DNA of 64,000 nucleotides, taken from positions 1 through 64,000 of the forward strand of contig JAKZZE010000037.1 of NCBI GenBank assembly GCA_024220505.1, written 5' to 3'. This document shows, piece by piece, positions 43,627 through 64,000 of the stretch. The notes beneath the pieces were generated by a model. The model saw nothing but the letters and a program-made list of their open reading frames with translations, was not told the DNA's origin and did not search any database. The position numbers were made by a program, and so were the translations under genes. Source of the DNA: Rhizopus arrhizus. Lineage: Eukaryota; Mucoromycota; Mucoromycetes; Mucorales; Rhizopodaceae. Each line of letters starts with the position of its first letter. Positions within the stretch are counted from its first letter, which is position 1.

Positions 43627-43700
43627 TGGTCACTACGAGGGTCGAACTCGCGACCTTGGCGTTATTAGCACCACGCTCTAACCAACTGAGCTAAGCGACC
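43627..43700 (-). tRNA. trnI-AAT: tRNA-Ile(AAT)
   Basis: 74 nt. Acceptor GGTCGCT with AGTGACC, D arm GCTC...GAGC, anticodon stem TGGTG/CGCCA with loop CTAATAA (anticodon AAT), T arm GCGAG-TTCGACC-CTCGT, discriminator A. No intron. Its 3' end plus CCA is the exact complement of the 18-nt PBS of all three gypsy elements. Its first 15 nt (GGTCGCTTAGCTCAG) are the LINE target duplication; LINE copy 1 starts directly at its 5' end, so its natural 5' flank is replaced. Confidence 0.95.
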
Positions 43701-43889
43701 ACCTTTCTTTCGCTCTTCCGACCGTTACACAAGGTATAGTACGCGTAATCAACTTTGAACTCAAATATCTCTGCGAATACGATACATCCATCCACCGTTT
43801 TAACACCAAAATAATCGTCGTATTTTTCTCTACAAACTATATTTTTTTCAACTCGATTGCTGTATTTTTCACCATTTTCGACATTTCCC

Positions 43890-44894
43890 ATGTCTCAACA
43901 ATCTGGCTCCCCCATTTCGCTCATCTCGCAAGATGGAGTTGCAAATGTCGACATTTCTAATGTTTCCAACATTCAAAACACCTTGCAGTATTTGTTAAAT
44001 ACTGTTAATACTCTACAACAAGAAGTTTCGACACATGCTAGTGTCATTGCTGAACTCTCTGCTCTGCGTAGTGAAAATGCGTCTTTGAAGGCGAAAATCG
44101 CTTCGCTTGAATCACAAATCTCCGCTGGCGCTGACATCAACAGTTCTTCCGCTTTCTCCTCTTTGGTTTCCGACCCGGCATCCATACGTGCACCCCAAGA
44201 TGCACCCCAAATGAACAAAACATCCTATAGTGCTATTGCTGCCAAGGCTGCTGCTACTGCTGCTATCACCTCTCGTCGCCCACCTAGCAAGAAGCGTAAG
44301 CTTGCTGCTAGTCGTCCCTTTCAACCTGTGGATCCCTCTGCTCCTCGTGGTTTTGAATACCTGTACTTGCACAGAAACCGCAAGCTGTCCCGTGCTGAAG
44401 TTAGGCGCAACCTGCGTCTACTTGGTCTTGATCTGTCCCGTGTCCTCGACATTTGCTTCCCTGGCCCAAAGGCCATTGGTCTCTTGGTCCACGTTCAATA
44501 CAAAGAAGAGGTGGTTTCTCTTCTCTCTGCTTCCAAGGTTCCGTTGGTTGACGGTTTTGATCCATTGGATCCTATCAACTTGGCGGATCCTGAGCTCCAG
44601 CATCTCTCATCGGCTGACAAGGCTAATGAATGTGCTGAGCTTCAGTTCACTCGCTGCTCCCGTGCTCTCTCTCGTCTTGGTGCTGGCCGTGCTCACCTAG
44701 TAGGTCCCGTAGGTAAGTACTTTTCTTCCAAGGGTTGGATCGATGAGGACTCTTTGAGTCAGATTCTGTCTTCCCTTCCCCCTTCCTCTTTTGCTTCTCG
44801 TGGTCGTGACCCAGGCGCTGCTTTCCGTGGTGACACGGTCATGTCAGATGCTTTGGCCTCTGATACCGCTAGTGCTGGATCACACTCATTATGA
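43890..44894 (+). CDS. LINE ORF1 protein, copy 1
   Basis: 334 residues from the ATG at 43890 (the CCCATGTC context is shared by all copies). Likely the RNA-binding chaperone of the LINE RNP. Residues about 27-80 form a heptad-like coiled coil (LQYLLNTVNTLQQEV...LRSENASLKAKIASLESQ). A Ser/Ala-rich linker and a basic PSKKRKLAA nuclear-localisation-like motif follow. Then comes a conserved alpha/beta block (GFEYLYLHRNRKL, EVRRNLRLLGLDL, GLLVHVQYKEEVVSLL) reminiscent of an RRM-like fold; that is inference. The tail has a Ser/Asp-rich end. The stop overlaps the ORF2 start as ATGA. Confidence 0.85.
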   Translation: MSQQSGSPISLISQDGVANVDISNVSNIQNTLQYLLNTVNTLQQEVSTHASVIAELSALRSENASLKAKIASLESQISAGADINSSSAFSSLVSDPASIRAPQDAPQMNKTSYSAIAAKAAATAAITSRRPPSKKRKLAASRPFQPVDPSAPRGFEYLYLHRNRKLSRAEVRRNLRLLGLDLSRVLDICFPGPKAIGLLVHVQYKEEVVSLLSASKVPLVDGFDPLDPINLADPELQHLSSADKANECAELQFTRCSRALSRLGAGRAHLVGPVGKYFSSKGWIDEDSLSQILSSLPPSSFASRGRDPGAAFRGDTVMSDALASDTASAGSHSL

Positions 44895-47800
44895 GTGAGG
44901 TCCAACACCTTTCTATAAGCCTTTGGAACGCGAATGGTCTTCGGACCACGACCGTTCATGAGGTCTTGTCTCATTGTCTCTCATCTACTCTCCTTTTCAT
45001 CACCGAGACTTGGCTTCTTTCCCCTTCTCTCCTTCCTACTGACTGGATGCAGTATCATGTGTATGGTGTTCCTGTACCTTCGGCCAACCGTGGTTCGATG
45101 GGTGTTACTGCTCTGGTCTCTCCTTCTTGTCCCTTTCCGGTCTCTCAACTTCCTTCAGCGAATCGGTATACCCTTTCGTTGAAGGTCGGACCCTTTCGCA
45201 TTCATTGTTTGTATGTACCTCCTCCTCTCTCTAACTCTCAATTTATAAATGTACTCTCCTCCATTCCTTCGTTACCCAATACTTTTATTTGTGGCGACTT
45301 TAATGCTCGTCTTGGTGACCTCACTGGTGATGCATTGGTCTCTCCTCGTGGTGCTGCTATGGCTCGCTGGCTTGCTGATCGTTCTTTGACCGTTCTGAAC
45401 GGCCCACTGGCTCATGGTATTCCTACCTGGGTCGGGTTTCGTGATGATCGAGAGATGAGTAGCATCATTGACATGTTTTTAACCAACGCGTCATTGATGT
45501 CTCCTCGCCTTGACATCGCGTCTGACTTGTCTCTTGGTTCTGATCATCGTCTACTCACGCTGTCTTTTTCATTTACTCAGTCAAGTGCCTCTGAGTCATT
45601 GTCTGATACATCTGATACCACACTACATCCTCGTCGATTATGGAACTTGTCTCGCCTTGGTGAACCTGATCCATGTCAGCTGTATCAAGATACATTTCGT
45701 TCATCTTCCGCTCCTTTGCTCTCTCAACTGAAGAGGTTGGTTCAACACCCTCCTTCTTCACGTCCGCCAATTGACGACCTCAACGCGTCGCTCAACAACA
45801 TAATCTACAGCTCTCTTGACTCTTCTGTCGGTGATCGTCCTCCTCGTCCTTCGCATTGGAAAAAGTACTGGACACAACAACTTCAAGATGCTGCTGATTT
45901 CCGCAACCGGTGCTACCGTAGATGGCGTCGTGCCTTTGGTATTGACAAAGTCTATTGGTGGCATCAACATCAACAAGCAAATGTTTCTTTCCGTCAAGCT
46001 GTGGCCAATGCCAAGCGTCTATCCTGGCAAGCATTCTGCAAGTCTCTTGAGTCTGACTTTACTAAAGCCATTTCAAAAGTAAAGCAACTCAATCGACGAC
46101 ATCAGTCATCCTCATCGTTCTCACATCCTGATGGTCCGTCAAAGGCAGTGGAGGTAATGGCTAGTCACTTGGCTTCGGTCTTTGATGGCAGTCTTCTACC
46201 TTCCACTCGCCCATCACCTCCTCCATCTTCATCCTCTCTTGGTTTGCCTCTTGGTCTCCATGGTTCGTCTCCTTCCGGTTCGTCTCCCTCTGGTTCCTCT
46301 GGTCCTACTGGTTCAAGTCACTCTTTGTTCACTCCTTTAACTATTCACATGTACATCGGTCAGCTCCCTACTCGTAAAGCTCCTGGTGCTGATCACATCA
46401 AGGCCGAGATGCTCAAGCCGATCAGTACTGACCTCTCCCACTTGCTGTCTTGGTTTTTTTCCTTGTGCTGTCAATGGTCTTACGTTCCTTCTCTCTGGCG
46501 GCATGCTCAAGTCTATCCGATCTTCAAGAAAGGTGATCCTTCGCTGCCGTCCAATTATCGACCGATCTCACTGACCTCGGTGTTCAGAAAGCTCCTTGAG
46601 CTTAGTCTCGCTCCATGGTTGTCTTCTGTCTCTCCTCCCCTTGACCTCGCTCAAGGTGGTTTCCGTCCTCGTCGCTCAGCTCTTGATCAAGCCCTATGCC
46701 TTCATGAGCTGATGCAGTCTTACTATCGTCGATCTCATCGTTTTCCTGTGGTTGCATTCCTGGATATCAAGTCGGCCTACGATACCGTCGACCGGCGTGT
46801 TATCTGGGATGCTCTCTCTCGCTCTGGTGCTGGTTCCTCTCCTTGTTTGCCTCTCTTGGTCCATCTCTTTGATGATGTCTCGGTGTCTGTCTTGGTGTCC
46901 AATCACTCGTCCACTCCTTTTTCTCCTGTCACCGGTGTCTTGCAAGGTTCTGTTCTCAGTCCTCACTTGTACTCGGTGTACATCAATACATTACCTGCTC
47001 TCCTTCGTCAAGTCGCTGCTCCTGCCACTCATTTGGTTCCCTCCTCTGGTCGCCCCGATGCTGGTATGGTCCCAGTCAACTCTCTCCTCTTTGCTGATGA
47101 TGTCGCAGTCATTGGCTCGGCAAAGTCAGTCAAAGAGATGCTCAAGCTCTGTGAGGATCACTCGTTGTCTCTTGGATATCGCTGGAATCCTCTGAAGTGT
47201 GCGGTGCTCAACCACCCCACTTCCTCTTCATCGTCATCTGGTTCAACCCAACTAAGCCTCTATGGTACCTCTCTGCCTTTGGTCGACAAGTTCGTATACC
47301 TTGGTATGCCTTTCGTCAAGACTGGTCTCTCTGCTGCTTCGGTGCTTTCTCTTCGTTCTCCTGGTGTGCTTCAACTAATGGGTATTCTCAACAAGATTGG
47401 CGTGAATCGTCAAGGCTTTTCTCTGCTCCTGTGTGCTCGCATCTATGCCACATTTGTCCGTCCAAAGTTCGAATATGGTCTCGCCATTTCCAAATTTTCT
47501 GCTGCTCAAGTGAAAGAAATTGAACGTCTTCAAGATCGCTGCCTTCGTATGATGGTAGGTGGTCATGCCACTTCTTCCACCACTATCATCAAGCATCTCA
47601 CTACCTTGCCGTCTATGCATCACCGCATAGATGTGCTTACAACTCGTTTCTGCCTTCGTGCCCGCTCTCTTCCTGGTTCTTGCCTGCTGTCTCTGCTATC
47701 AACCACGCTACCTGTCTCACGTATCAAGGTCCATCTTGACAAGAATCCGCTCTTCTTGGCTTTGCCTTCTCCTCCTCCGTCCTCCGATGCTCGGCTCAAG

Positions 47801-48316
47801 ACCTTCTTTCGCCAGTATCGTGAGCGTCAACTCACTTCACTCGTCACCTCCACTACCCAGGTTCTCCTACGCGCATGTCGCCCTGCTCTGGTGGTTGATC
47901 CCATCTTATACGTTCCTGCAACCCGTGCAGAACGCTCTCTCTTGGTTCGTTGGCGTCTTGGCTGGCTGCCAGGTAAGCCTGAAGATTGTCCTTGTGGCCG
48001 TGATCGTCGTTCTCGTCGCCACTTCTTAGAATGCGATCTTATACCTTCGTTCCTTTGGTCTGATCTGCCTCGCTGTCCTCCTGGGTGCTATCCCATTGAC
48101 TTTGCTCTTTCCTCGTTGCCTCTTGGTCGCTCAGCTCGCTGTCCTCCTTGGTGGTCATCACTCCTATTGATGCTTCGCATATCCAACGTCTCTGTCGTCC
48201 TGATAGGAATCTTCCTATTGACTCTTCTCCTGGTGCCTTATGGTATTCTCGTTCTTCTCGTCACCCTGACTGAAACCCTTCTTTGTCTGTCTCCTGCTGA
48301 TCCCCCACGGAAGTAA
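44891..48316 (+). pseudogene. LINE ORF2 (endonuclease-RT), copy 1, C-terminal frameshift
   Basis: About 1,141 codons. The N-terminal APE-type endonuclease has WNANGL (13-18), ETWL (39), GDFNARLGD (136-144) and SDHR (217-220). A variable Ser/Gly/Pro linker follows (about 450-480). RT: RKAPGADHIKAEM, FRKLLELSL, FLDIKSAYDTVDR (about 623), GVLQGSVLSPHLY, FADD (about 735). Near the end a CPCGRDRRSRRHFLEC zinc-knuckle-like motif. One base is missing near 48172-48178, so the last about 45 residues are out of frame; the homologous stop would be at 48271. No RNase H seen. Confidence 0.88.
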
Positions 48317-48539
48317 AGCCATCAAAGTTCCTTACCGTTGGGTTGTGACAGTAGGTCAGCTAAGTTGTGGAAGTAAGCTGCCATTCTCATCTTTTTCTTT
48401 ATCTTTTTTTTTGGAGTTTTTCTGTTTCTCAGGCTCCTTTTTTTGTACTTATTCTTTTTCTTTGTACTGGAAGATGCAATAATGACTTTTTAGTCGCCTG
48501 CAATATATCTTCGTTATTTAATAAAACAAAATCTTTAAC

Positions 48540-48554
48540 CTGAGCTAAGCGACC
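48540..48554 (-). repeat. Target duplication: tRNA-Ile nucleotides 1-15
   Basis: CTGAGCTAAGCGACC, the reverse complement of the tRNA-Ile 5' end, separates LINE copies 1 and 2. Confidence 0.93.
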
Positions 48555-48743
48555 ACCTTTCTTTCGCTCTTCCGACCGTTACACAAGGTAGACGACGCGT
48601 AATCAACTTTGAACTCGATTATCTCGCTCAATATAATACATCCATCAACCGTTTTAACATCAAAAAATTCGCTAATTTTTTCTCTACAAACCATATTTTT
48701 TTCAAGTTCATAACTCCTTTTTTTACAATTTTCGACATCTCCC

Positions 48744-49727
48744 ATGTCAGAACATTCCACCCTTGCTAATTTGCAAATGTCGACAAATGTCACAACTAAT
48801 GTCGACATGCCCAACTCAACCGACCTCACACAAGCTGTGCAGTATCTATTAAATACTGTTCAAACCCTCCAACACCGTGTTACAACACACGACGACCTCT
48901 TGGCCGAACTTACTGCATTACGCAGTGAAAACTCTACATTGAAAGCCGAGATTGCTAATCTCAAAGCTCAATTGAATGCTGCATCTGGCGAATCTGTCGC
49001 TAAGGCTACTTTTTCTGTTCCTGTCTCTTCTGTCCCTACTTCTGTGGTCGAACAAGCGCCAACTACTGTCCGCCCTACTTATAGTGCTGTTGCCGCCCGT
49101 AACACTTCCAAACCTGCGTCTAAAAAGCGTAAGCTTGCTGCCGGCCGAACTTTTCAACCTGTGGATCCTACTGCACCTCGTGGATTCGAGTACTTGTACT
49201 TGAACCGTAACCGTAAGCTCACCCGCGCTGAAGTCAGACGTAATCTACGTCTACTTGGTCTTGACCTCTCTCGTCTGCTCGATATCTGCTTCCCTGGCCC
49301 AAAGGTCATTGGTCTATTGGTGCACGTTCTTTACAAAGAAGAGGTGGTTTCTCTTCTTTCTGCTGCCAAGGTTCCGTTGGTTGACGGTTTTGATCCATTG
49401 GATCCTGTCAACTTGGCGGATCCTGAGCTCCAGCATCTTTCATCGGCTGACAAGGCTAATGAATGTGCTGAGCTCCAGTTCACTCGCTGCTCCCGTGCTC
49501 TCTCTCGTCTTGGTGCTGGCCGTGCTCACCTGGTGGGTCCCATAGGTAAGTACTTTTCTTCCAAGGGTTGGCTTGATGAGGACTCTTTGAGTCAGATTCT
49601 GTCTTCCCTTCCCCCTTCCTCTTTTGCTTCTCGTGGTCGTGACCCAGGCGCTGCTTTCCGTGGTGACACGGTCATGTCAGATGCTTTGGTCTCTGATTCC
49701 GCTAGTGCTGGATCACACTCATTATGA
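48744..49727 (+). CDS. LINE ORF1 protein, copy 2
   Basis: 327 residues. Same layout as in copy 1: coiled coil (AVQYLLNTVQTLQHRV...LRSENSTLKAEIANLKAQL), ASKKRKLAAG basic motif, GFEYLYLNRNRKL and EVRRNLRLLGLDLSRLL core. The N-terminal half is clearly diverged from the other copies while the C-terminal half is nearly identical. ATGA overlap with ORF2. Confidence 0.85.
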   Translation: MSEHSTLANLQMSTNVTTNVDMPNSTDLTQAVQYLLNTVQTLQHRVTTHDDLLAELTALRSENSTLKAEIANLKAQLNAASGESVAKATFSVPVSSVPTSVVEQAPTTVRPTYSAVAARNTSKPASKKRKLAAGRTFQPVDPTAPRGFEYLYLNRNRKLTRAEVRRNLRLLGLDLSRLLDICFPGPKVIGLLVHVLYKEEVVSLLSAAKVPLVDGFDPLDPVNLADPELQHLSSADKANECAELQFTRCSRALSRLGAGRAHLVGPIGKYFSSKGWLDEDSLSQILSSLPPSSFASRGRDPGAAFRGDTVMSDALVSDSASAGSHSL

Positions 49728-52700
49728 GTGAGGTCCAACACCTTTCTATAAGCCTTTGGAACGCGAATGGTCTTCGGACCACGACCGTTCATGAGGTCTT
49801 GTCTCATTGTCTCTCCTCTACTCTCCTTTTCATCACCGAGACTTGGCTTCTTTCCCCTTCTCTTCTTCCTACTGACTGGATGCAGTATCATGTGTATGGT
49901 GTTCCTGTACCTTCGGCCAACCGTGGTTCGATGGGTGTTACTGCCCTGGTCTCTCCTTCTTGTCCCTTTCCTATCTCTCAACTTCCTTCACCGAATCGGT
50001 ATACCCTTTCGTTGAAGGTCGGACCCTTTCGCATTCATTGTTTGTATGTTCCTCCTCCTCTTTCCAACTCTGAATTTGTAAATGTACTTTCCTCCATCCC
50101 CTCCTTACCCAATACTTTTATTTGTGGCGACTTTAATGCTCGTCTTGGTGACCTCACTGGTGATGCATTGGTCTCTCCTCGTGGTGCTGCTATGGCTCGC
50201 TGGCTTGCTGATCGCTCCTTGACCGTTCTGAACGGCCCACTGGCTCATGGTATTCCTACCTGGGTCGGGTTTCGTGATGATCGAGAGATGAGTAGCATCA
50301 TTGACATGTTTTAACAAACGCGTCATTGATGTCTCCTCGCCTTGACATCGCGTCTGACTTGTCTCTTGGTTCTGACCATCGTCTGCTGACCTTGTCTTTC
50401 TCATTTGCTCAGTCAAGTGCCTCTGAGTCTTCATCTGAAACTACTGATGCTACCATTCATCCTCGTCGATTATGGAACTTGTCTCGCCTTGGTGAACCTG
50501 ATCCATGTCAATTGTATCAAGACACCTTTCGTTCGTCCTCTGCTCCTTTGCTGTCTCAACTGAAGAGGTTGGTTCAACACCCTCCTTCTTCACGTCCACC
50601 TATTGACGACCTCAACGCGTCGCTCAACTCAATCATCTACCGCTCTCTTGACTCTTCTGTCGGTGATCGTCCTCCTCGTCCTTCACATTGGAAAAAGTAC
50701 TGGACACAACAACTACAAGATGCTGCTGACTTCCGCAACAGGTGCTACCGTAGATGGCGTCGTGCCTTTGGCATCGACAAAGTCTATTGGTGGCATCAAC
50801 ATCAACAAGCGAATACCTCTTTCCGTCAAGCTGTGGCCAATGCCAAACGTCTGTCCTGGCAAGCATTTTGCAAGTCTCTCGAATCTGACTTCACTAAAGC
50901 CGTTTCCAAAGTCAAGCAACTCAATCGACGACATCAGTCATCATCGTCGTTTTCCCATCCTGATGGTCCGTCTAAGGCAGTGGAGGTAATGGCTAGTCAC
51001 TTGGCTTCGGTCTTTGATGGCAGTCTTCTACCTTCCACTCGCCCACCACCTCCATCATCTTCATCCTCTCTTGGTCTGCCTCTTGGTCTCCATGGTTCGT
51101 CTCCCTCTGGTTCGTCTCCTTCTGGTTCGTTTCCCTCTGGTTCCGCTGGTTCTCCTGGTCCTTCAAATTCTCTCTTCGCTCCTTTAACTATTCACATGTA
51201 CATCGGTCAGCTCCCTACTCGTAAAGCTCCTGGTGCTGATCACATCAAGGCCGAGATGCTCAAGCCGATCAGTACTGACCTGTCATTCATTCTTTCCTGG
51301 TTCTTTACTCTATGCTATCAATGGTCCTATGTTCCTTCTCTGTGGCGACATGCTCAAGTTTATCCCATTTTCAAGAAAGGTGATTCATCACTTCCCTCAA
51401 ACTACCGTCCAATCTCACTCACATCTGTATTCCGCAAGCTACTTGAGCTGTCGCTGTCTCCATGGTTGTCCTCTGTCTCTCCTCCTCTTGACCTTGCTCA
51501 AGGTGGTTTCCGTCCTCGTCGATCTGCCCTGGATCAGGCTCTGTGCCTTCATGAACTAATACAGTCGTATTACCGTCGATCTCATCGGTTTCCTGTGGTG
51601 GCATTCCTGGATATCAAGTCGGCCTACGACACCGTCGACCGGCGTGTTATCTGGGATGCTCTCTCTCGTTCTGGTGCTGGTTCCTCTCCTTGTCTGCCTC
51701 TCTTGGTTCATCTTTTTGATGATGTCTCGGTGTCTGTCCTGGTGTCAAACCATTCTTCTGCTGCTTTCTCTCCTGTCACCGGTGTCTTGCAAGGTTCTGT
51801 TCTCAGTCCTCACTTGTACTCGGTGTACATCAACACTCTTCCTTCCCTCCTTCGTCAAGTCGCTGCTCCTGCCACTCATTTGGTTCCCTCCTCTGGTTCT
51901 GCTAATGCTGGTATGGTCCCAGTGAACTCTCTCCTCTTTGCTGACGATGTCGCAGTCATTGGCTCGGCAAAGTCAGTCAAAGAGATGCTCAAGCTATGTG
52001 AAGAACACTCCCTGTCTCTTGGATATCGCTGGAATCCTCTGAAGTGCGCGGTGCTCAACCACCCCACTTCCTCTTCATCGTCATCTGGTTCAACCCAACT
52101 AAAGCTCTATGGTACTTCTCTCCCCTTGGTCGACAAGTTCGTATACCTTGGTATGCCTTTCGTCAAGACTGGTCTCTCTGCTGCTTCGGTGCTTTCTCTT
52201 CGTTCTCCTGGTGTGCTTCAACTAATGGGTATTCTCAACAAGATTGGCGTGAATCGTCAAGGCTTTTCTCTGCTCCTGTGTGCTCGCATCTATGCCACAT
52301 TTGTCCGTCCAAAGTTCGAATATGGTCTTGCTATCTCAAAGTTTACTGCAACTCAAGTCAAAGAAATAGAACGTCTTCAAGACCGATGCCTTCGTATGAT
52401 GGTTGGTGGTCATGCTACCTCCTCTACGCTGGTCATCAAGCACATGACAACATTGCCATCTATGCACCACCGCATAGATGTGCTTACAACTCGTTTCTGC
52501 CTTCGTGCCCGCTCTCTTCCTGGTTCTTGCCTGCTGTCTCTCCTGTCGTCAACGCTGCCTGTCTCTCGAATCAAGATCCATCTTGACAAGAATCAGCTCT
52601 TCCTGGCTCTGCCCTCTCCTCCTCCGTCCTCCGATGCTCGGCTCAAGACCTTCTTTCGCCAGTATCGTGAGCGTCAAGTCACATCCATTGTCACCTCCAC

Positions 52701-53121
52701 TACCCAGGTTCTCTTACGCGCATGTCGCCCTGCTCTGGTGGTTGATCCCATCTTATACGTTCCTGCAACCCGTGCAGAACGCTCTCTCTTGGTTCGTTGG
52801 CGTCTTGGTTGGTTGCCAGGCAAGCCTGAAGACTGTCCTTGTGGCCGTGATCGTCGCTCTCGCCGTCACTTTTTCGAGTGCGATCTTATCCCGTCTTTCC
52901 TTTGGTCTGACCTTCCTCGCTGTCCTCCTGGGACTTATCCCATTGACTTTGCTCTTTCCTCGTTGCCTCTTGGTCGCTCAGCTCGCTGTCCTCCTTGGTG
53001 GTCATCTCTCTTGTTGATGCTCTGGCATATACAACGTCTGTGCCGTCCTGATAGCTTCTATGCTATTGACTCTTCTCCTGGTGCCTTATGGTATTCACGA
53101 TCATCTCGTAACTCTGACTGA
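49724..53121 (+). pseudogene. LINE ORF2, copy 2, frameshift in the endonuclease domain
   Basis: All endonuclease, RT and C-terminal motifs are present. A single T is missing from the T run in GACATGTTTT near 50308-50312, so the first frame ends at 50314 just before the SDHR motif; the rest (50326-53121) is open. The linker has an extra SPSG-type repeat compared with copies 3 and 4. Confidence 0.88.
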
Positions 53122-53592: not shown

Positions 53593-54597
53593 ATGTCTCA
53601 ACAATCTGGTTCCCCCATTTCGCTCATCTCGCAAGATGGAGTGGCAAATGTCAACATTACAGACCCTTCTGACATGCAACAAGCTTTGCAATATTTATTG
53701 CACAACTTCCAAACCCTCCAGCAACGTGTTTCAACACACGATGACTTATTTGCTGAACTGACTGCTTTACGCAGTGAAAATGCTACTTTGAAGGCGAAAA
53801 TCGCCTCACTCGAATCTCAACTTTCCGCTGGCGCTGACGTCAACCGTTCTTCTGCTTTTTCCTCTTTGGCTTCCGACCCGGTTACCATACGTGCACCCCA
53901 AGATGCACCCCAAACGAACAATGCAACCTATAGTTCTATTGCTGCCAAGGCTGCTGCTACTACTGCTACTACTACCCGTCGCCCACCTAGCAAGAAGCGA
54001 AAGCTTGCTGCTAGTCGTCCCTTCCAACCTGTGGATCCTTCTGCTCCTCGTGGTTTTGAATACCTGTACTTGCACCGTAACCGTAAGCTCACCCGTGCTG
54101 AAGTTAGACGCAACTTGCGTCTACTTGGTCTTGACCTCTCTCGTCTGCTTGATATCTGCTTCCCTGGACCCAAGGTCATTGGTCTATTGGTCCATGTTCT
54201 CTACAAAGAAGAGGTGATCTCTCTTTTATCCACAGCCAAGGTTCCGTTGGTTGACGGTTTTGATCCTCTGGATCCTGGCAACTTGGCGGATCCTGAGCTC
54301 CAGCATCTTTCATCGGCTGACAAAGCTAACGAATGTGCTGAGCTCCAGTTCACTCGCTGCTCCCGTGCACTCTCTCGTCTTGGTGCTGGTCGTGCTCACC
54401 TGGTGGGTCCCATAGGTAAGTACTTTTCTTCCAAGGGATGGATCGATGAGGACTCTTTGAGTCAGATTCTGTCTTCCCTCCCCTCTCCTCTTTCTGCTTC
54501 TCGTGGTCGTGACCCAGGCGCTGCTTTCCGTGGTGACACGGTCATGTCAGATGCTTTGGTCTCTGATTCCGCTAGTGCTGGATCACACTCATTATGA
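53593..54597 (+). CDS. LINE ORF1 protein, copy 3
   Basis: 334 residues. The coiled coil has the copy-2-like core (LQQRVSTHDDLFAELTALRSEN) but the N-terminal residues of copy 1 (MSQQSGSPISLISQDG), a mosaic. Basic PSKKRKLAAS motif and conserved core present. ATGA overlap with ORF2. Confidence 0.85.
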   Translation: MSQQSGSPISLISQDGVANVNITDPSDMQQALQYLLHNFQTLQQRVSTHDDLFAELTALRSENATLKAKIASLESQLSAGADVNRSSAFSSLASDPVTIRAPQDAPQTNNATYSSIAAKAAATTATTTRRPPSKKRKLAASRPFQPVDPSAPRGFEYLYLHRNRKLTRAEVRRNLRLLGLDLSRLLDICFPGPKVIGLLVHVLYKEEVISLLSTAKVPLVDGFDPLDPGNLADPELQHLSSADKANECAELQFTRCSRALSRLGAGRAHLVGPIGKYFSSKGWIDEDSLSQILSSLPSPLSASRGRDPGAAFRGDTVMSDALVSDSASAGSHSL

Positions 54598-57500
54598 GTG
54601 AGGTCCAACACCTTTCTATAAGCCTTTGGAACGCGAATGGTCTTCGGACCACGACCGTTCATGAGGTCTTGTCTCATTGTCTCTCCTCTACTCTCCTTTT
54701 TATCACCGAGACTTGGCTTCTTTCCCCTTCTCTTCTTCCTACTGACTGGATGCAGTATCATGTGTATGGTGTTCCTGTACCTTCGGCCAACCGTGGTTCG
54801 ATGGGTGTTACTGCTCTGGTCTCTCCTTCTTGTCCCTTTCCTGTCTCTCAACTTCCTTCACCGAATCGGTATACCCTTTCGTTGAAGGTCGGACCCTTTC
54901 GCCTTCATTGTTTGTATGTACCTCCTCCTCTTTCCAACTCTGAATTTGTAAATGTACTTTCCTCCATCCCCTCCTTACCCAATACTTTTATTTGTGGCGA
55001 CTTCAATGCTCGTCTTGGTGACCTCACTGGTGATGCATTGGTCTCTCCTCGTGGTGCTGCTATGGCTCGCTGGCTTGCTGATCGCTCCTTGACCGTTCTG
55101 AACGGCCCACTGGCTCATGGTATTCCTACCTGGGTCGGGTTTCGTGATGATCGAGAGATGAGTAGCATCATTGACATGTTTTTAACAAACGCGTCATTGA
55201 TGTCTCCTCGCCTTGACATCGCGTCTGACTTGTCTCTTGGTTCTGATCATCGTCTACTAACGCTGTCATTTTCTTTTGCTCAGTCAAGTGCCTCTGAGTC
55301 TATGTCTGATACCAATGATACCACACTACATCCTCGTCGACTATGGAACTTGTCTCGCCTTGGTGAACCTGATCCATGTCAGCTGTATCAAGATACTTTT
55401 CGTTCGTCCTCTGCTCCTTTGCTTTCTCAACTGAAAAGGTTGGTTCAACACCCTCCTTCTTCACCTCCGCCTATTGACGACCTCAACGCGTCGCTCAACG
55501 ATATCATCTACCGCTCCCTTGACTCTTCTGTCGGTGATCGTCCACCTCGTCCTTCACATTGGAAAAAGTACTGGACACAACAACTTCAAGATGCTGCTGA
55601 CTTCCGCAACAGGTGCTACCGTAGATGGCGTCGTGCCTTTCGCATCGACAAAGTCTATTGGTGGCATCAACATCAACAAGCGAATACCTCTTTCCGTCAA
55701 GCTGTGGCCAATGCCAAACGTCTGTCCTGGCAAGCATTTTGCAAGTCTCTCGAATCTGACTTCACTAAAGCCGTTTCCAAAGTCAAGCAACTCAATCGAC
55801 GACATCAGTCATCATCGTCGTTTTTCCATCCTGATGGTCCATCTAAGGCAGTGGAGGTAATGGCTAGTCACTTGGCTTCGGTCTTTGATGGCAGTCTTCT
55901 ACCTTCCACTCGCCCACCACCTCCATCATCTCCATCCTCTCTTGGTTTGCCTCTTGGTCTCCATGGTTCATCTCCTTCTGGTTCGTTTCCCTCTGGTTCC
56001 TCTGGTTCTCCTGGTCCTTCAAATTCTCTCTTCGCTCCTTTAACTATTCACATGTATATCGGTCAGCTCCCTACTCGTAAAGCTCCTGGTGCTGATCACA
56101 TCAAGGCCGAGATGCTCAAGCCGATCAGTACTGACCTCTCCCACTTGCTGTCTTGGCTCTTTTCCCTATGCTGTCAATGGTCTTACGTTCCTTCTCTCTG
56201 GCGGCATGCTCAAGTCTATCCGATCTTCAAGAAAGGTGATCCTTCGCTGCCGTCCAATTATCGACCCATCTCACTGACCTCGGTGTTCAGAAAGCTCCTT
56301 GAGCTTAGTCTTGTTCCATGGCTCGCCTCGGTGTCGCCTCGACTTGATCTGGCTCAAGGTGGCTTTCGTCCTCGTCGCTCAGCTCTTGATCAAGCCTTAT
56401 GTCTTCATGAGCTGATGCAGTCTTACTATCGTCGATCTCATCGTTTTCCTGTGGTTGCATTCCTGGATATCAAGTCGGCCTACGATACCGTCGACCGGCG
56501 TGTTATCTGGGATGCTCTCTCTCGCTCTGGTGCTGGTTCCTCTCCTTGTCTGCCTCTCTTGGTTCATCTTTTCGATGATGTCTCGGTGTCTGTCTTGGTG
56601 TCCAATCACTCGTCCGCTCCTTTTCTCCTGTCACCGGTGTCTTGCAAGGTTCTGTTCTCAGTCCTCACTTGTACTCGGTGTACATCAATACTCTTCCTGC
56701 TTTACTTCGTCAAGTCGCTGCTCCTGCCACCCATTTGGTTCCCTCCTCTGGTTCTGCTGATGCTGGTATGGTCCCAGTCAACTCTCTCCTCTTTGCTGAC
56801 GATGTCGCAGTCATTGGCTCGGCAAAGTCAGTCAAAGAGATGCTCAAGCTCTGTGAGGATCACTCACTGTCTCTTGGTTATCGATGGAATCCTCTAAAGT
56901 GTGCGGTGCTCAACCACCCCACTTCCTCTTCATCGTCATCTGGTTCAACCCAACTAAGTCTCTATGGTACTTCTCTGCCCTTGGTCGACAAGTTCGTATA
57001 CCTTGGTATGCCGTTTGTCAAGACTGGTCTCTCTGCTGCTTCGGTGCTTCCTCTTCGTTCTCCTGGTGTGCTTCAACTGATGGGTATTCTCAACAAGATT
57101 GGTGTAAACCGTCAAGGCTTTTCTCTTCTCTTGTGTGCTCGGATCTACGCTACTTTTGTCCGTCCAAAATTCGAATATGGCCTCGCCATTTCCAAGTTTT
57201 CTGCTGCTCAAGTTAAAGAAATTGACCGCTTACAAGACCGATGCCTTCGTATGATGGTAGGTGGTCATGCCACCTCCTCTACGTTGGTTATCAAACATAT
57301 GACAACCTTGCCATCTATGCACCACCGCATAGATGTGCTTACAACTCGCTACTGTCTTCGTGCTCGCTCTCTCCCTGGTTCTTGCCTGCTGTCTCTGCTA
57401 TCGTCAACGCTTCCAGTATCTCGCATCAAGGTCCATCTTGAAAAGAATCCGCTCTTCTTGGCTCTGCCTTCTCCTCTTCCGTCCTCCGATGCTCGGCTCA

Positions 57501-57976
57501 AGACCTTCTTTCGCCAGTATCGTGAGCGTCAAGTCACGTCTATTGTCACCTCCACTACCCAGGTTCTCCTACGCGCATGTCGCCCTGCTCTGGTGGTTGA
57601 TCCCGTTCTTTACGTTCCTGCAACCCGTGCAGAACGCTCTCTCTTGGTTCGTTGGCGTCTTGGCTGGCTGCCAGGTAAGCCTGAAGACTGTCCTTGTGGC
57701 CGTGATCGTCGTTCCCGTCGCCACTTTCTTGAGTGCGATTTGATCCCGTCTTTCCTTTGGTCTGACCTTCCTCGCTGTCCTCCTGGGTCTTATCCCATTG
57801 ACTTTGCTCTTTCCTCGTTGCCTCTTGGTCGCTCAGCTCGCTGTCCTCCTTGGTGGTCTTCTCTTCTGTTAATGCTCTGGCACATCCAACGCCTCTGCCG
57901 TCCTGATAGCTTCTATGCTATTGACTCTTCTCCTGGTGCCTTATGGTATTCTAGCTCTTCTCGTAACTCTGACTGA
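54594..57976 (+). pseudogene. LINE ORF2, copy 3, frameshift within RT
   Basis: Endonuclease and RT motifs as in copy 1. One T is missing in the run near 56618-56625 (between the FDDVSVSVLV segment and the GVLQGSV block), so the frame diverges to 56897; the correct frame resumes and runs to 57976 (FADD, CPCG...HFLEC, ending SSSRNSD). Confidence 0.88.
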
Positions 57977-58242
57977 AACCCTTCTTTGTCTGTCTCCTAC
58001 TGATCCCCCACGGAAGTAAAGCCATCAAAGTTCCTTACCGTTGGGCTGTGACAGTAGGTCAGTTAAGTTGTGGAAGTAGGCAGTCAATCTGATCTTTTTT
58101 CTTTATCATTTTTTTGGAGTTTTTCTGTTTCTCAGGCTCCTTTTTTGTACCTTATTCTTTTTTCATTGTACTTGAAGATGCAACAATGACTTTTTAGTCG
58201 CCTGCAAATATCTTCCTATTAAATAAAAACAAAATCTTTAAC

Positions 58243-58257
58243 CTGAGCTAAGCGACC
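58243..58257 (-). repeat. Target duplication: tRNA-Ile nucleotides 1-15
   Basis: CTGAGCTAAGCGACC between LINE copies 3 and 4. Confidence 0.93.
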
Positions 58258-58455
58258 ACCTTTCTTTCGCTCTTCCGACCGTTACACAAGGTAGACGACG
58301 CGTAATCAACTTTGAACCCGATTATCTCACCCAATACTATACATCCATCAACCGTTTTACTATCAAAAAATTCGCCTAATTTTTCTCTACAAGATATATT
58401 TTTTTCAAGTTCATAACTCCTTTTCTTGCAATTTTCGACATCTTCGACATTACCC

Positions 58456-59442
58456 ATGTCAACTAATCCCGGTCTTAACATTTCACCCATCTCAACAGAT
58501 GGCGTTGCAAATGTCGACATTTCCAATATTCCAAATATTCAAGAAACTTTACACTATTTGTTAAACACCGTTACTGCACTACAACAAGAAGTTTCGACAC
58601 ATGCTAGTGTCATTGCTGAACTTTCTGCTCTGCGCACTGAAAATGCGTCTTTAAAATCCAAAATTGCGACTTTAGAAGCGCAATTGGCTTCATCTTCTTC
58701 TCCTTCTGTCGCTTCTGCTGCTTCTGTCTCTGTTCCTGCTGCTAAACCAACTTCTTTGGCTGCACAAAATGTTTCGCCTGCTGTCCAAGCTACATACTCT
58801 GCTGTTGCTGCTCGTCCTGCTGTTCGTTCTCCATCTAAAAAGCGCAAATTGGCTGCTAGTCGCGCTTTCCAACCCATTGATCCCGATGCCCCACGCGGTT
58901 TTAAATACTTGTATCTCAATCGCAATCGTAAGTTAACTCGCTCTGAGATTCGAAGAAATCTTCGCTTGCTTGGTCTGGACTTGTCTCGTGTCCTCGATGT
59001 CTGTTTCCCTGGCCCCAAGGCTATTGGTCTTTTGGTCCATGTTCAGTATGTGCCAGAGGTGATCTCTCTGCTCGCTACTGCAAAGGTTCCGTTGGTTGAC
59101 GGTTTTGATCCCCTGGATCCCGTCAACTTGGCTGATCCTGAGCTTCAGCACCTCTCCCTATCTGCAAAGGCGGATAAGTGTGCTGAACTTCACTACTCCC
59201 GCTGTTGTCGTGCTCTTTCTCGTCTTGGTGCTGGTCGTCCCCATTTGGTCGCCCCAGTAGGTAAGTATTTCTCTTCCCATGGCTGGATCGATGACGACTC
59301 CTTGAGTCAGATTCTTTCTGAGCTTCCCCCTTCCTCTTTTGCTTCTCGTGGTAGAGATCCAGGCGCTGCTTTCCGTGGTGACACGGTCATGTCAGATGCT
59401 TTGGCCTCTGATTCCGCTAGTGCTGGATCACACTCATTATGA
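58456..59442 (+). CDS. LINE ORF1 protein, copy 4
   Basis: 328 residues, the most diverged ORF1. Coiled coil LHYLLNTVTALQQEV...LRTENASLKSKIATLEAQL, Ser/Ala-rich linker, PSKKRKLAAS, then GFKYLYLNRNRKLTRSEIRRNLRLLGLDL. It ends in the same Ser-rich tail and overlaps ORF2 by ATGA. Confidence 0.85.
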   Translation: MSTNPGLNISPISTDGVANVDISNIPNIQETLHYLLNTVTALQQEVSTHASVIAELSALRTENASLKSKIATLEAQLASSSSPSVASAASVSVPAAKPTSLAAQNVSPAVQATYSAVAARPAVRSPSKKRKLAASRAFQPIDPDAPRGFKYLYLNRNRKLTRSEIRRNLRLLGLDLSRVLDVCFPGPKAIGLLVHVQYVPEVISLLATAKVPLVDGFDPLDPVNLADPELQHLSLSAKADKCAELHYSRCCRALSRLGAGRPHLVAPVGKYFSSHGWIDDDSLSQILSELPPSSFASRGRDPGAAFRGDTVMSDALASDSASAGSHSL

Positions 59443-62400
59443 GTGAGGTCCAACACCTTTGTATAAGCCTTTGGAACGCGAATGGTCTTCGGACCACGAC
59501 CGTTCATGAAGTCCTGTCTCATTGCTTATCCTCCACACTCCTTTTTATTACCGAGACTTGGCTTCTTTCCCCTTCTCTCCTTCCCACTGACTGGATGCAG
59601 TATCATGTGTATGGTGTTCCTGTACCTTCGGCCAACCGTGGTTCGATGGGTGTTACTGCTCTGGTCTCTCCTTCTTGTCCCTTTCCTGTCTCTCAACTTC
59701 CTTCACCGAATCGGTATACCCTTTCGTTGAAGGTCGGACCCTTTCGCATTCATTGTTTGTATGTTCCTCCTCCTCTTTCCAACTCTGAATTTGTAAATGT
59801 ACTTTCCTCCATCCCCTCCTTACCCAATACTTTTATTTGTGGCGACTTTAATGCTCGTCTTGGTGACCTCACTGGTGATGCATTGGTCTCTCCTCGTGGT
59901 GCTGCTATGGCTCGCTGGCTTGCTGATCGCTCCTTGACCGTTCTGAACGGCCCACTGGCTCATGGTATTCCTACCTGGGTCGGGTTTCGTGATGATCGAG
60001 AGATGAGTAGCATCATTGACATGTTTTTAACAAACGCGTCATTGATGTCTCCTCGCCTTGACATCGCGTCTGACTTGTCTCTTGGTTCTGATCATCGTCT
60101 ACTCACGCTGTCTTTTTCATTTACTCAGTCAAGTGCCTCTGAGTCATTGTCTGATATACCTGATACCACTCTACATCCTCGTCGATTATGGAACTTGTCT
60201 CGCCTTGGTGAACCTGATCCATGTCAGCTGTATCAAGATACATTTCGTACGTCCTCTGCTCCTTTGCTTTCTCAACTGAAAAGGTTGGTTCAACACCCTC
60301 CTTCTTCACGTCCACCTATTGACGACCTCAACGCGTCGCTCAACAACATAATCTACAGCTCTCTTGACTCTTCTGTCGGTGATCGTCCTCCTCGTCCTTC
60401 GCATTGGAAAAAGTACTGGACACAACAACTTCAAGATGCTGCTGATTTCCGCAACCGGTGCTACCGTAGATGGCGTCGTGCCTTTGGCATCGACAAAGTC
60501 TATTGGTGGCATCAACATCAACACGCAAATGTTTCTTTCCGTCAAGCTGTGGCCAATGCCAAGCGTCTGTCCTGGCAAGCATTTTGCAAGTCTCTCGAAT
60601 CTGACTTCACTAAAGCCGTTTCCAAAGTCAAGCAACTCAATCGACGACATCAGTCATCATCGTCGTTTTCCCATCCTGATGGTCCATCTAAGGCAGTGGA
60701 GGTAATGGCTAGTCACTTGGCTTCGGTCTTTGATGGCAGTCTTCTACCTTCCACTCGCCCACCACCTCCGTCATCTCCATCCTCTCTTGGTTTGCCTCTT
60801 GGTCTCCATGGTTCGTCTCCCTCTGGTTCGTTTCCCTCTGGTTCCGCTGGTTCTCCTGGTCCTTCAAATTCTCTCTTCGCTCCTTTAACTATTCACATGT
60901 ACATCGGTCAGCTCCCTACTCGTAAAGCTCCTGGTGCTGATCACATCAAGGCCGAGATGCTCAAGCCGATCAGTACTGACCTGTCATTCATTCTTTCCTG
61001 GTTCTTTACTCTATGCTATCAATGGTCCTATGTTCCTTCTCTGTGGCGACATGCTCAAGTTTATCCCATTTTCAAGAAAGGTGATTCATCACTTCCCTCA
61101 AACTACCGTCCAATCTCACTCACATCTGTATTCCGCAAGCTACTTGAGCTGTCGCTGTCTCCATGGTTGTCCTCTGCATCTCCTCCTCTTGACCTTGCTC
61201 AAGGTGGTTTCCGTCCTCGTCGATCTGCCCTGGATCAGGCTCTGTGTCTACATGAACTGATACAATCATATTACCGTCGTTCTCATCGGTTTCCTGTGGT
61301 GGCATTCCTGGATATCAAGTCGGCCTACGATACCGTCGACCGGCGTGTTATCTGGGATGCTCTCTCTCGTTCTGGTGCTGGTTCATCTCCTTGTCTGCCT
61401 CTCTTGGTCCATCTTTTTGATGATGTCTCGGTGTCTGTCCTGGTGTCAAACCATTCTTCTGCTGCTTTCTCTCCTGTCACCGGTGTCTTGCAAGGTTCTG
61501 TTCTCAGTCCTCACTTGTACTCGGTGTACATCAACACATTACCTGCTCTCCTCCGTCAAGTCGCTGCTCCTGCTACCCATTTGGTTCCCTCCTCTGGTTC
61601 TGCTGATGCTGGTATGGTCCCAGTGAACTCTCTCCTCTTTGCTGACGATGTCGCAGTCATTGGCTCGGCAAAGTCAGTCAAAGAGATGCTCAAGCTTTGC
61701 GAACAACATTCACTGTCTCTGGGTTATCGATGGAACCCAACAAAATGTGCGGTGCTCAACCATCCACCATTGTCATCTTCTTCGTCTTCCTCTGATCGCC
61801 TCCAGTTGTACGGTACTCCTCTGCCTTTGGTGGATGAGTTCGTATACCTTGGAGTGCCCTTCGTCAAGTCTGGTCTCTCTGCTCCTTCCTTGGTTTCTCT
61901 TCGGTCTCCTGGTGTACTCAAGGTTATGGCTATTTTAAACAAGATTGGTGTCAACCGTCAAGGTTTCTCTCTTCTGCTCTGCTCACGCATCTATGCTACC
62001 TTTGTTCGCCCGAAGTTTGAGTATGGCCTAGCCATATCTCGGCTGACGGCAACCGACCTCAAATCTATAGAAAATCTGCAAGATCGCTGTCTTCGTCTCT
62101 TGGTTGGTGGTCATCGTACCTCTTCTACAACAATCATCAAGCATATTACCACGCTGCCATCTATGCGTCATCGTGTAGATGTGCTTACAACTCGCTACTG
62201 TCTTCGTGCTCGCTCTCTCCCTGCTTCTTGCTTGCTGTCTCTGCTGTCAACAACGCTACCTGTCTCTCGTATCAAGGTTCATCTTGAAAAGAATCCGCTC
62301 TTCTTGGCTCTGCCTTCTCCTCTTCCGTCCTCCGATGCTCGGCTCAAGACCTTCTTTCGCCAGTATCGTGAGCGTCAAGTCACGTCTATTGTCACCTCCA

Positions 62401-62822
62401 CTACCCAGGTTCTCCTACGCGCATGTCGCCCTGCTCTGGTGGTTGATCCCGTTCTTTACGTTCCTGCAACCCGTGCAGAACGCTCTCTCTTGGTTCGTTG
62501 GCGTCTTGGCTGGCTGCCAGGTAAGCCTGAAGACTGTCCTTGTGGCCGTGATCGTCGTTCCCGTCGCCACTTTCTTGAGTGCGATTTGATCCCGTCTTTC
62601 CTTTGGTCTGACCTTCCTCGCTGTCCTCCTGGGTCTTATCCCATTGACTTTGCTCTTTCCTCGTTGCCTCTTGGTCGCTCAGCTCGCTGTCCTCCTTGGT
62701 GGTCTTCTCTTCTGTTAATGCTCTGGCACATCCAACGCCTCTGCCGTCCTGATAGCTTCTATGCTATTGACTCTTCTCCTGGTGCCTTATGGTATTCTAG
62801 CTCTTCTCGTAACTCTGACTGA
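59439..62822 (+). CDS. LINE ORF2: APE endonuclease-reverse transcriptase, copy 4 (intact)
   Basis: 1,127 residues. It nicks target DNA and reverse-transcribes the LINE RNA at the nick. The endonuclease (1-225) carries WNANGL, ETWL, GDFNARLGD and SDHR. A linker region has WW/aromatic-rich motifs (KVYWWHQH) and a Ser/Gly/Pro repeat. RT: FLDIKSAYDTVDR, GVLQGSVLSPHLY, LLFADDVAVIGS. The C-terminal CPCGRDRRSRRHFLEC is probably a zinc knuckle. About 61690-62250 is much more diverged from the other copies than its surroundings. No RNase H domain recognised. Confidence 0.92.
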   Translation: MSEVQHLCISLWNANGLRTTTVHEVLSHCLSSTLLFITETWLLSPSLLPTDWMQYHVYGVPVPSANRGSMGVTALVSPSCPFPVSQLPSPNRYTLSLKVGPFRIHCLYVPPPLSNSEFVNVLSSIPSLPNTFICGDFNARLGDLTGDALVSPRGAAMARWLADRSLTVLNGPLAHGIPTWVGFRDDREMSSIIDMFLTNASLMSPRLDIASDLSLGSDHRLLTLSFSFTQSSASESLSDIPDTTLHPRRLWNLSRLGEPDPCQLYQDTFRTSSAPLLSQLKRLVQHPPSSRPPIDDLNASLNNIIYSSLDSSVGDRPPRPSHWKKYWTQQLQDAADFRNRCYRRWRRAFGIDKVYWWHQHQHANVSFRQAVANAKRLSWQAFCKSLESDFTKAVSKVKQLNRRHQSSSSFSHPDGPSKAVEVMASHLASVFDGSLLPSTRPPPPSSPSSLGLPLGLHGSSPSGSFPSGSAGSPGPSNSLFAPLTIHMYIGQLPTRKAPGADHIKAEMLKPISTDLSFILSWFFTLCYQWSYVPSLWRHAQVYPIFKKGDSSLPSNYRPISLTSVFRKLLELSLSPWLSSASPPLDLAQGGFRPRRSALDQALCLHELIQSYYRRSHRFPVVAFLDIKSAYDTVDRRVIWDALSRSGAGSSPCLPLLVHLFDDVSVSVLVSNHSSAAFSPVTGVLQGSVLSPHLYSVYINTLPALLRQVAAPATHLVPSSGSADAGMVPVNSLLFADDVAVIGSAKSVKEMLKLCEQHSLSLGYRWNPTKCAVLNHPPLSSSSSSSDRLQLYGTPLPLVDEFVYLGVPFVKSGLSAPSLVSLRSPGVLKVMAILNKIGVNRQGFSLLLCSRIYATFVRPKFEYGLAISRLTATDLKSIENLQDRCLRLLVGGHRTSSTTIIKHITTLPSMRHRVDVLTTRYCLRARSLPASCLLSLLSTTLPVSRIKVHLEKNPLFLALPSPLPSSDARLKTFFRQYRERQVTSIVTSTTQVLLRACRPALVVDPVLYVPATRAERSLLVRWRLGWLPGKPEDCPCGRDRRSRRHFLECDLIPSFLWSDLPRCPPGSYPIDFALSSLPLGRSARCPPWWSSLLLMLWHIQRLCRPDSFYAIDSSPGALWYSSSSRNSD

Positions 62823-63088
62823 AACCCTTCTTTGTCTGTCTCCTGCTGATCCCCCACGGAAGTAAAGCCATCAAAGTTCCTTACCGTTGGGCTGTGACAG
62901 TAGGTCAGCTAAGTTGTGGAAGTAGGCAGTCAATCTGATCTTTTGCTTTATCATTTTTTTGGAGTTTTTCTGTTTCTCAGGCTCCTTTTTTTGTACCTTA
63001 TTCTTTTTTCATTGTACTTGAAGATGCAATAATGACTTTTTAGTCGCCTGCAAATATCTTCCTATTAAATAAAAACAAAATCTTTAAC

Positions 63089-63103
63089 CTGAGCTAAGCG
63101 ACC
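63089..63103 (-). repeat. Target duplication: tRNA-Ile nucleotides 1-15
   Basis: CTGAGCTAAGCGACC between LINE copies 4 and 5; copy 5 begins directly after it with mid-ORF2 sequence. Confidence 0.93.
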
Positions 63104-64000
63104 GCTCTATGGTACTTCTCTCCCCTTGGTCGACAAGTTCGTATACCTTGGTATGCCTTTCGTCAAGACTGGTCTCTCTGCTGCTTCGGTGCTTTCTCTT
63201 CGTTCTCCTGGTGTGCTTCAACTAATGGGTATTCTCAACAAGATTGGCGTGAATCGTCAAGGCTTTTCTCTGCTCCTGTGTGCTCGCATCTATGCCACAT
63301 TTGTCCGTCCAAAGTTCGAATATGGTCTTGCTATCTCAAAGTTTACTGCAACTCAAGTCAAAGAAATAGAACGTCTTCAAGACCGATGCCTTCGTATGAT
63401 GGTTGGTGGTCATGCTACCTCCTCTACGCTGGTCATCAAGCACATGACAACATTGCCATCTATGCACCACCGCATAGATGTGCTTACAACTCGTTTCTGC
63501 CTTCGTGCCCGCTCTCTTCCTGGTTCTTGCCTGCTGTCTCTCCTGTCGTCAACGCTGCCTGTCTCTCGAATCAAGATCCATCTTGACAAGAATCCGCTCT
63601 TCTTGGCTTTGCCTTCTCCTCCTCCGTCCTCCGATGCTCGGCTCAAGACCTTCTTTCGCCAGTATCGTGAGCGTCAAGTCATCACTCTCGTCACCTCCAC
63701 TACCCAGGTTCTCTTACGCGCATGTCGCCCTGCTCTGGTGGTTGATCCCGTCCTATACGTTCCTGCAACCCGTGCAGAACGCTCTCTCTTGGTTCGTTGG
63801 CGTCTTGGTTGGTTGCCAGGCAAGCCTGAAGACTGTCCTTGTGGCCGTGATCGTCGCTCTCGCCGTCACTTTTTCGAGTGCGATCTTATCCCGTCTTTCC
63901 TTTGGTCTGACCTTCCTCGCTGTCCTCCTGGGACTTATCCCATTGACTTTGCTCTTTCCTCGTTGCCTCTTGGTCGCTCAGCTCGCTGTCCTCCTTGGTG
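63104..64000 (+). mobile_element. 5'-truncated LINE, copy 5 (runs off the window)
   Basis: Starts GCTCTATGGTACTTC, corresponding to about 52104 in copy 2, immediately after the tRNA remnant. Classic 5' truncation from incomplete target-primed reverse transcription. Closest to copy 2. Confidence 0.9.
63105..64000 (+). pseudogene. LINE ORF2 fragment, copy 5
   Basis: Open from 63105 (LYGTSLPLVDKFVYLG) through the post-RT region and CPCGRDRRSRRHFFEC to the window end. It lacks endonuclease and RT catalytic motifs, has no start codon, and is not expected to be functional. Confidence 0.88.

Follow-up and report, generated by a model that had tools for sequence, protein, structure and literature searches.

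The sequence analyzed here, referred to as the window, comprises the first 64,000 nucleotides of contig JAKZZE010000037.1 of Rhizopus arrhizus (C31:1-64000); the genome searched was 50.26 Mb in 41 contigs. The last third of the window contains an intact tRNA-Ile(AAT) gene followed by a head-to-tail array of five long interspersed nuclear elements (LINEs), all antisense to the tRNA. The elements belong to a group that we term family I, and their insertion into tRNA genes is the subject of this analysis. The array is made up of the following features, including the open reading frames (ORFs) of its first copy.

43627-43700, minus strand: intact tRNA-Ile(AAT), the target gene (43626-43701 according to ARAGORN)
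43701-48540, plus strand: LINE copy 1, family I, full length (4840 bp), abutting tRNA nucleotide (nt) 1
43890-44894, plus strand: ORF1 of copy 1, with weak, below-cut-off, coiled-coil-like Pfam matches and nothing else
44891-48316, plus strand: ORF2 of copy 1, 1141 aa, apurinic/apyrimidinic (AP) endonuclease and reverse transcriptase
48541-48554, plus strand: 14-bp target-site duplication TGAGCTAAGCGACC, tRNA nt 1-14 in antisense
48555-53389, plus strand: LINE copy 2, full length (4835 bp), with ORF1 open and the ORF2 frame shortened to 931 aa
53390-53403, plus strand: 14-bp duplication between copies 2 and 3
53404-58243, plus strand: LINE copy 3, full length (4840 bp), with ORF2 as two split frames
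58244-58257, plus strand: 14-bp duplication between copies 3 and 4
58258-63089, plus strand: LINE copy 4, full length (4832 bp), with both ORFs open (338 and 1127 aa)
63090-63103, plus strand: 14-bp duplication between copies 4 and 5
63104-64000, plus strand: LINE copy 5, 5'-truncated, continuing beyond the window to C31:64389

Every full copy starts with ACCTTTCTTTCG and ends with AACAAAATCTTTAACC, without poly(A), and is followed by TGAGCTAAGCGACC. The 14-bp duplication recurs after the end of copy 5 (C31:64389), where a short interspersed nuclear element (SINE) follows, and the array extends to about C31:91.6 kb with more LINEs, SINEs and nested insertions. The presence of the array was confirmed. 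A misassembly artifact appears unlikely, given a divergence of ~8-14% between copy 1 and the other copies along most of their length. A preliminary description, made from the window alone, had reported an intact tRNA-Ile, four full-length LINEs and one truncated LINE in uniform antisense orientation, with uniform junctions and no poly(A) tail, all of which was seen at 43627-64000. It had also reported an identical 15-bp spacer; the spacers are indeed identical, but consist of 14 bp of target preceded by the last C of the LINE itself.

At the tRNA-Ile gene the junction reads ...CCAAC/TGAGC and the LINE end ...TTAACC/TGAGC, leaving the common C ambiguous. The tRNA-Ala(AGC) gene reads ...CCATT/TGAGC, and the LINE 3' junction there is still ...TTAACC/TGAGC. 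Since the gene has TTGAGC but the LINE junction CTGAGC, the additional C is part of the LINE. At tRNA-Ala the duplication measures exactly 14 bp, as it does at tRNA-Lys, tRNA-Thr(AGT) and tRNA-Thr(CGT), which are sites of a sister family (family II, with a tail ending in A). Longer matches at tRNA-Ile, Phe, Met, Thr(TGT), Ser and a SINE site fit a chance matching base or a next element with a similar start. The duplicated 14 bp are a target-site duplication, and the tRNA gene stays whole, being regenerated by the duplication rather than destroyed.

The element is an APE-type LINE, with an N-terminal AP endonuclease and a reverse transcriptase in ORF2, which matched the Pfam domains Exo_endo_phos_2, Exo_endo_phos and RVT_1. 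Compared by sequence with the PDB, the reverse transcriptase matched R2 (E 1e-17) and human L1 (E 8e-15). The predicted model of ORF2, with a mean predicted local distance difference test (pLDDT) score of 73, aligned with human L1 ORF2p over most of its length with a low global template-modeling (TM) score of 0.40, and the modeled endonuclease gave TM scores by target of 0.71-0.76 against L1-EN and TRAS1-EN. No zf-RVT domain or ORF1 zinc finger was found among Pfam matches up to E 5, a range in which the HMMER filters drop weak matches. ORF2 was 95-96% identical to R. delemar and R. arrhizus proteins covering ~65% of its length; over 96% of it, an R. stolonifer protein matched with 89% identity. 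Viral and genome contig collections gave no useful relatives with DNA context.

The whole genome was searched with a 23-base family-I 5'-end query, allowing at most 1 mismatch, and with the reversed pattern as a control. The 71 matches, against 0 for the control, exclude chance. All but one of these 5' ends (70/71) lie at, or at most 9 bases from, tRNA nt 1 or its copy: 46 are 20-34 bases past the start of a 3'-end pattern that ends in CTGAGC, 8 adjoin tRNA genes (5 tRNA-Ile and 3 tRNA-Ala), and the sequences of the other 17 were read, 16 of them following a tRNA or the 14-bp copy of one (with 2 mismatches in one case, and after 1-9 extra bases in some). A 14-base 3'-end query, which samples unselected ends and whose matches were classed by eye, gave 89 matches (control, 3). 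CTGAGC follows at 69 and nt 1-14 of another tRNA at 13 (one after 5 extra bases), while 5 are off target and 2 have no LINE upstream. On-target LINE 3' ends therefore amount to 82/87, of which 69 were assigned by six target bases. The off-target 3' ends are followed by TGA in 4/5 cases and by TGG in the fifth. Family I is strictly site-specific in the sense that nearly all copies stand at one position. The mostly unrelated flanks that would have spoken against the preliminary description were not encountered at either end, and its tRNA-site association stood. Its sole target, tRNA-Ile(AAT), did not, as tRNA-Ala(AGC) is used too.

Family I targets most tRNA-Ile(AAT) and tRNA-Ala(AGC) genes. Ten genomic copies of tRNA-Ile(AAT) were found, 9 of them identical (including the window gene) and one matching at 67/74; an eleventh match in the search proved to be tRNA-Val. 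An element is present at the 5' end of 7/10, namely a LINE at five (including the gene on C18) and a 162-163-bp element at two. One further gene has LTR-like (long terminal repeat-like) DNA at nt 1, with the first LINE 5' end 7.9 kb out, and two, both on C25, are empty. These two lie in a 1266-bp, 99% identical inverted repeat (C25:412646-420435; L036, L037) with an inter-gene GC of 0.29. Eleven copies of tRNA-Ala(AGC) were found, and at 9 of them elements occur on the LINE side: a LINE stands at the 5' end of four, after 5 extra bases in one case, and at five more, element 3' ends lie 0.4-4.2 kb away on that side, as judged from 3' ends alone. The other two tRNA-Ala genes have no nearby element in the list of exact 3' ends. 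A target consisting of one tRNA-Ile gene, as first described, was dropped once sites had been found at tRNA-Ala, Phe, Lys, Met, Thr, Ser and Cys, most of these belonging to sister families.

The same coordinate, between nt 14 and 15, is used in ten tRNA species by four ORF2-matched LINE families, a fifth set and tRNA-headed SINEs. The family II ORF2 is 43% identical to that of family I. Family II comprises ten full-length copies with a rounded identity of 100%, one of which has an in-frame stop, and two partial copies. Further ORF2 matches (~62-66%) form arrays spaced ~5.4 kb on C4 and ~5.6 kb on C12, with spacers TGTGCTAAACGGGC and TCGGTCAAATTGTC, respectively (one junction read each); these were named families III (C4) and IV (C12) by their targets and ends, not by mutual similarity. 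Seven stretches were placed from ORF2 positions and an assumed 5' length, for five family-II copies out of twelve and for the copy listed first in each of the C4 and C12 arrays. All of them (7/7) contained an intact antisense tRNA, and the LINE began 0-2 bases away from its nt 1. The tRNAs were Phe(GAA), Lys(TTT), Met(CAT), Thr(AGT) and Thr(CGT) for family II, where the 3' ends, and hence the expected tRNA, were known beforehand, Thr(TGT) for family III and Ser(CGA) for family IV. The 3' ends of all seven copies carry nt 1-14 of their own tRNA.

A pattern composed of the A box, 7 N and ACTTTTCTTT had 28 genome matches (reversed control, 0), and the 7 N were always one of eight 7-mers known from tRNA 5' ends at other places. 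By tRNA, the matches were Cys 12, Lys 3, Thr-TGT 3, Thr-AGT 3, Met 2, Phe 2, Thr-CGT 2 and Ile 1. Ten of the matches read as LINE starts and 2 read with other DNA behind, the remaining 16 being known by the pattern alone. At those 2 (C9:1135846 and C31:328063), ACTTTTCTTT may be a remnant or plain flank, because LTR-like DNA follows it. tRNA-Cys(GCA) was confirmed as a target at two sites. The fifth set, that of tRNA-Cys, is known from ends and spacing alone; its members occur in pairs 5.07-5.09 kb apart and two spacers have the 14-bp copy behind the tail ...TTTTCGAC, so arrays form at tRNA-Cys too. The A-box letters before the predicted cut (^) are TRGCTCA^ in 8/10 tRNAs, TAGCACA^ in Thr-TGT and TGACCGA^ in Ser-CGA.

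SINEs of two families, ~509 and ~527 bp long with tRNA-like heads and the LINE tail (...AAATCTTTAACC), occupy LINE target sites with the same 14-bp copies. They are located as follows.

C31:64404-64912 and C31:69781-70307 (L020): the two SINE families, found also at L062, L068 and L079

One 5'-truncated SINE stands at a tRNA with tRNA-Thr(CGT) sequence and has a clean duplication. The tail of the 163-bp element at tRNA-Ile is that of the tRNA-Cys set.

A tree was inferred by a quick method, with some deeper forks unsure, from 54 rows picked from 122 homologous proteins together with family II. Families I and II fell in different branches of one 43-row set (SH-aLRT 100) in which proteins of Mucor, Phycomyces, Umbelopsis and Cokeromyces are also found. 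If both families target tRNA genes by descent, the trait would be older than Rhizopus.

Divergence was measured to the nearest fetched relative over the last 900 bases, so the values concern fetched copies only and are not independent; one C3 copy, its 3' end split off by an insert, was left out of the ranking. Divergence rises with distance from the tRNA in both C31 (Spearman 0.85, n=9, p=0.004) and C3 (Spearman 0.66, n=10, p=0.038). Long nested insertions occur beyond 76 kb in C31 and already in the second copy in C3. We conclude with moderate confidence that arrays grow mostly outward, with some exchange. The first two array copies at C3:1635564-1647689 and C14:1062381-1074460 share their structure and a nested insert; an allele, a segmental duplication and an assembly duplicate are candidate explanations. 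LINE 5' ends at two tRNA-Ala sites (L064 and L087) carry an extra CGACC or CGACCGACC; these bases resemble those that end the tRNA-Ile copy, as would be left by a source transcript begun upstream within a tRNA-Ile array.

It is highly probable from these results that the APE-type LINEs of this group use target-primed reverse transcription to enter tRNA genes at a fixed coordinate, regenerating the target and building arrays. Observed directly were the exact junctions, a duplication of 14 bp and, at one end, an intact tRNA, and a target-site duplication together with 5'-truncated copies that have intact 3' ends is as expected for target-primed reverse transcription. Site-specific, arrayed insertion of an APE-type LINE at the A-box end in a fungus, as proposed in the preliminary description, is supported by the junctions and by the endonuclease and reverse transcriptase domains. 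As the duplication corresponds to tRNA nt 1-14, the AP endonuclease would nick the sense strand of the tRNA gene just after A14, within the A box, and the freed 3' end would prime cDNA synthesis from the end of the LINE RNA, which has no poly(A). On the opposite strand the cut would fall 14 bp away, where the mature tRNA begins, and fill-in would duplicate nt 1-14. With gene and target regenerated, a tRNA gene that has received one insertion can receive another. New copies would mostly enter beside the tRNA and push older ones outward, giving a one-way array, as the divergence suggests. Each family would have its own set of A boxes, with SINEs that carry the LINE tail using the same sites.

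Several observations weigh against this interpretation. One of the 71 5' ends (C37:1346621) has no tRNA, 5/87 LINE 3' ends are off target, and the family-I copies that were not fetched were checked over six target bases only. One of the 69 3' ends assigned in this way (C34:473533) has an Ile copy with one mismatch and stands alone. Some LINE 5' junctions contain 1-9 extra bases, and the C18 tRNA-Ile is missing its first bases, so insertion is not always harmless. The tRNA-3' flank of the empty C25 genes matches that of the filled C9 gene, but no empty/filled pair with both flanks matching was obtained, the C25 5' flank having found only matches to its own repeat (40/437 candidates scored). Copy 4 is ~100% identical over 2.19 kb to copies, both shallow and deep, in four other places and 99% identical to one further copy elsewhere, so that strict outward growth would need exchange between arrays or many later insertions.

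The near-identical recurrence of copy 4 at several arrays could also be explained by tandem amplification, in which a single LINE insertion was followed by multiplication of the LINE plus 14-bp unit through unequal crossing-over or gene conversion. In its favor, the C3 and C14 arrays have their first two copies and a nested insert in common, and neighboring copies 3 and 4 differ by only 1.6% over the last 900 bp. However, identity between copies 3 and 4 over 2.19 kb is only 89%, the divergence of copies 2-5 from copy 1 is as given above, and the nearest fetched relative of 13/19 C31 and C3 copies is in another array. Truncated LINEs and SINEs stand between identical spacers, and the same junction is found at single insertions in other tRNA genes; we regard this explanation as very improbable. 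Random insertion, with selection keeping the copies that leave tRNA genes whole, is a general possibility for any biased distribution and draws nothing specific from these data. Selected random insertion would not place 70/71 5' ends at or within 9 bases of one position, and its probability is negligible.

How the site is recognized is less certain. We consider it reasonably likely that the endonuclease reads A-box DNA directly, without guidance by RNA polymerase III factors. The competing explanation, which has an appreciable though smaller chance of being correct, is that TFIIIC or TFIIIB brings in ORF1 and ORF2, as reported for Ty3 and TRE5, and that the endonuclease cuts the nearest permissive site; this would be consistent with the remainder of the model. 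Tethering would account for the constancy of the cut (nt 14/15 and nt 1) across ten tRNAs that differ in their first seven bases, and for the outward position of older copies, as if bare 14-bp copies without a B box were poor targets. Yet sister families differ in the tRNAs used and in their A-box letters, the off-target ends keep TGA in 4/5 cases without a tRNA, and TRE5 insertions are spread over a window rather than confined to one base (PMC5911963). We suggest tentatively, at somewhat less than even chance, that the cut falls at a structural position of the tRNA gene (A14/15 and the mature 5' end) that has stayed fixed by descent in a LINE lineage spanning the Mucoromycota, while the choice of tRNA switched between families. 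Regeneration of the target would then let the tRNA gene serve repeatedly as a dock, and the order of copies in an array would roughly record past waves of retrotransposition, common to LINEs and the SINEs that parasitize them.

The target-site duplication of R1 is 14 bp, and the known targets of R1- and Tx1-clade LINEs differ from that of the Rhizopus LINEs. The R1- and Tx1-clade LINEs resemble the Rhizopus LINEs in being APE-type with exact targets (PMC4640811). The dictyostelid TRE5/TRE3 and NLTR-A/NLTR-B elements are likewise APE-type and drawn to tRNA genes, and TRE5 also lies opposite to the tRNA. TRE5 inserts ~40-54 bp, NLTR-B 39-64 bp and NLTR-A 2-6 bp upstream of the tRNA gene, and TRE3 downstream (PMC5911963, PMC5006619). 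The dictyostelid TREs thus insert in a window outside the gene, whereas the Rhizopus LINEs insert inside it, with a probable nick at nt 14/15 and a 14-bp duplication reaching to nt 1. Contact of ORF1 with TFIIIB is a further feature of the TREs. NeSL-1_TV (tRNA-Pro), LIN15_SM (tRNA-Arg) and LIN25_SM (tRNA-Glu) are NeSL-related, tRNA-specific non-LTR elements (PMC4640811). These too are sequence-specific in tRNA genes, but their group has a restriction-like endonuclease (PMC4640811), unlike the N-terminal AP endonuclease of the Rhizopus LINEs. Dada elements, cited in the preliminary description as APE-type LINEs, are instead DDE DNA transposons with a 6-7-bp duplication (PMC3706591). Dada tRNAs are family-specific, and Dada-tIA_PMar has the putative duplication TAGCTC, part of the tRNA-Ile A box (PMC3706591). 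Of the two, only the Rhizopus LINEs are retrotransposons, bearing a reverse transcriptase and making a 14-bp duplication. In Mucor, Grem-LINE1 is L1-like, numerous in pericentric regions, and has zf-RVT and ORF1 zinc fingers (PMC7377519), features not found by Pfam in the Rhizopus LINE. It flanks the kinetochore-binding region, and the word tRNA is absent from the main text on it in PMC7377519. LINEs make up 3.78% of the R. oryzae assembly, with no target stated in the part of PMC2699053 consulted.

Both tRNA-gene-specific LINEs (NeSL-related) and TREs beside tRNA genes are thus already in print, and the novelty suggested in the preliminary description does not extend to tRNA-specific non-LTR elements as such. 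It may hold for the cut site: among the titles and abstract beginnings listed from the open-access literature, none reported an APE-type LINE with this cut site, nor such LINEs in Rhizopus. Inserting in this way, a LINE makes use of the internal promoter of tRNA genes without, as a rule, disrupting the gene, and the safe site therefore stays available. Sister families that share one cut position and use different tRNAs form a natural series for studying how an AP endonuclease gains and switches specificity, which is of interest for targeted gene insertion. A layered record of element succession may be preserved in the arrays, and their SINEs are a test of how SINEs inherit target choice. The findings also bear on where repeats gather in Mucorales chromosomes. 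Divergent tRNA pairs 12-78 kb apart, with LINE-side elements outward, were seen at C9:1148004/1161698, C11:54673/67241 and C24:133669/212027, an arrangement that resembles the repeats surrounding centromeres in Mucor. On C25, by contrast, the two genes of the pair face inward.

Several tRNA genes (L012, L019, L023, L045 and L052) have an LTR-like sequence (around GTCGGATTTTGGTCGATGATCGCC) only a few bases upstream, and a similar candidate LTR, at 4935-4965 of the window, is situated likewise upstream of tRNA-Leu. These would fit the reported frequent co-localization of R. oryzae Ty3-like LTR elements with tRNA genes (PMC2699053). Three window ORFs of 448 aa each (10348-11694, 19816-21162 and 35280-36626) are perhaps copies of one transposon gene.

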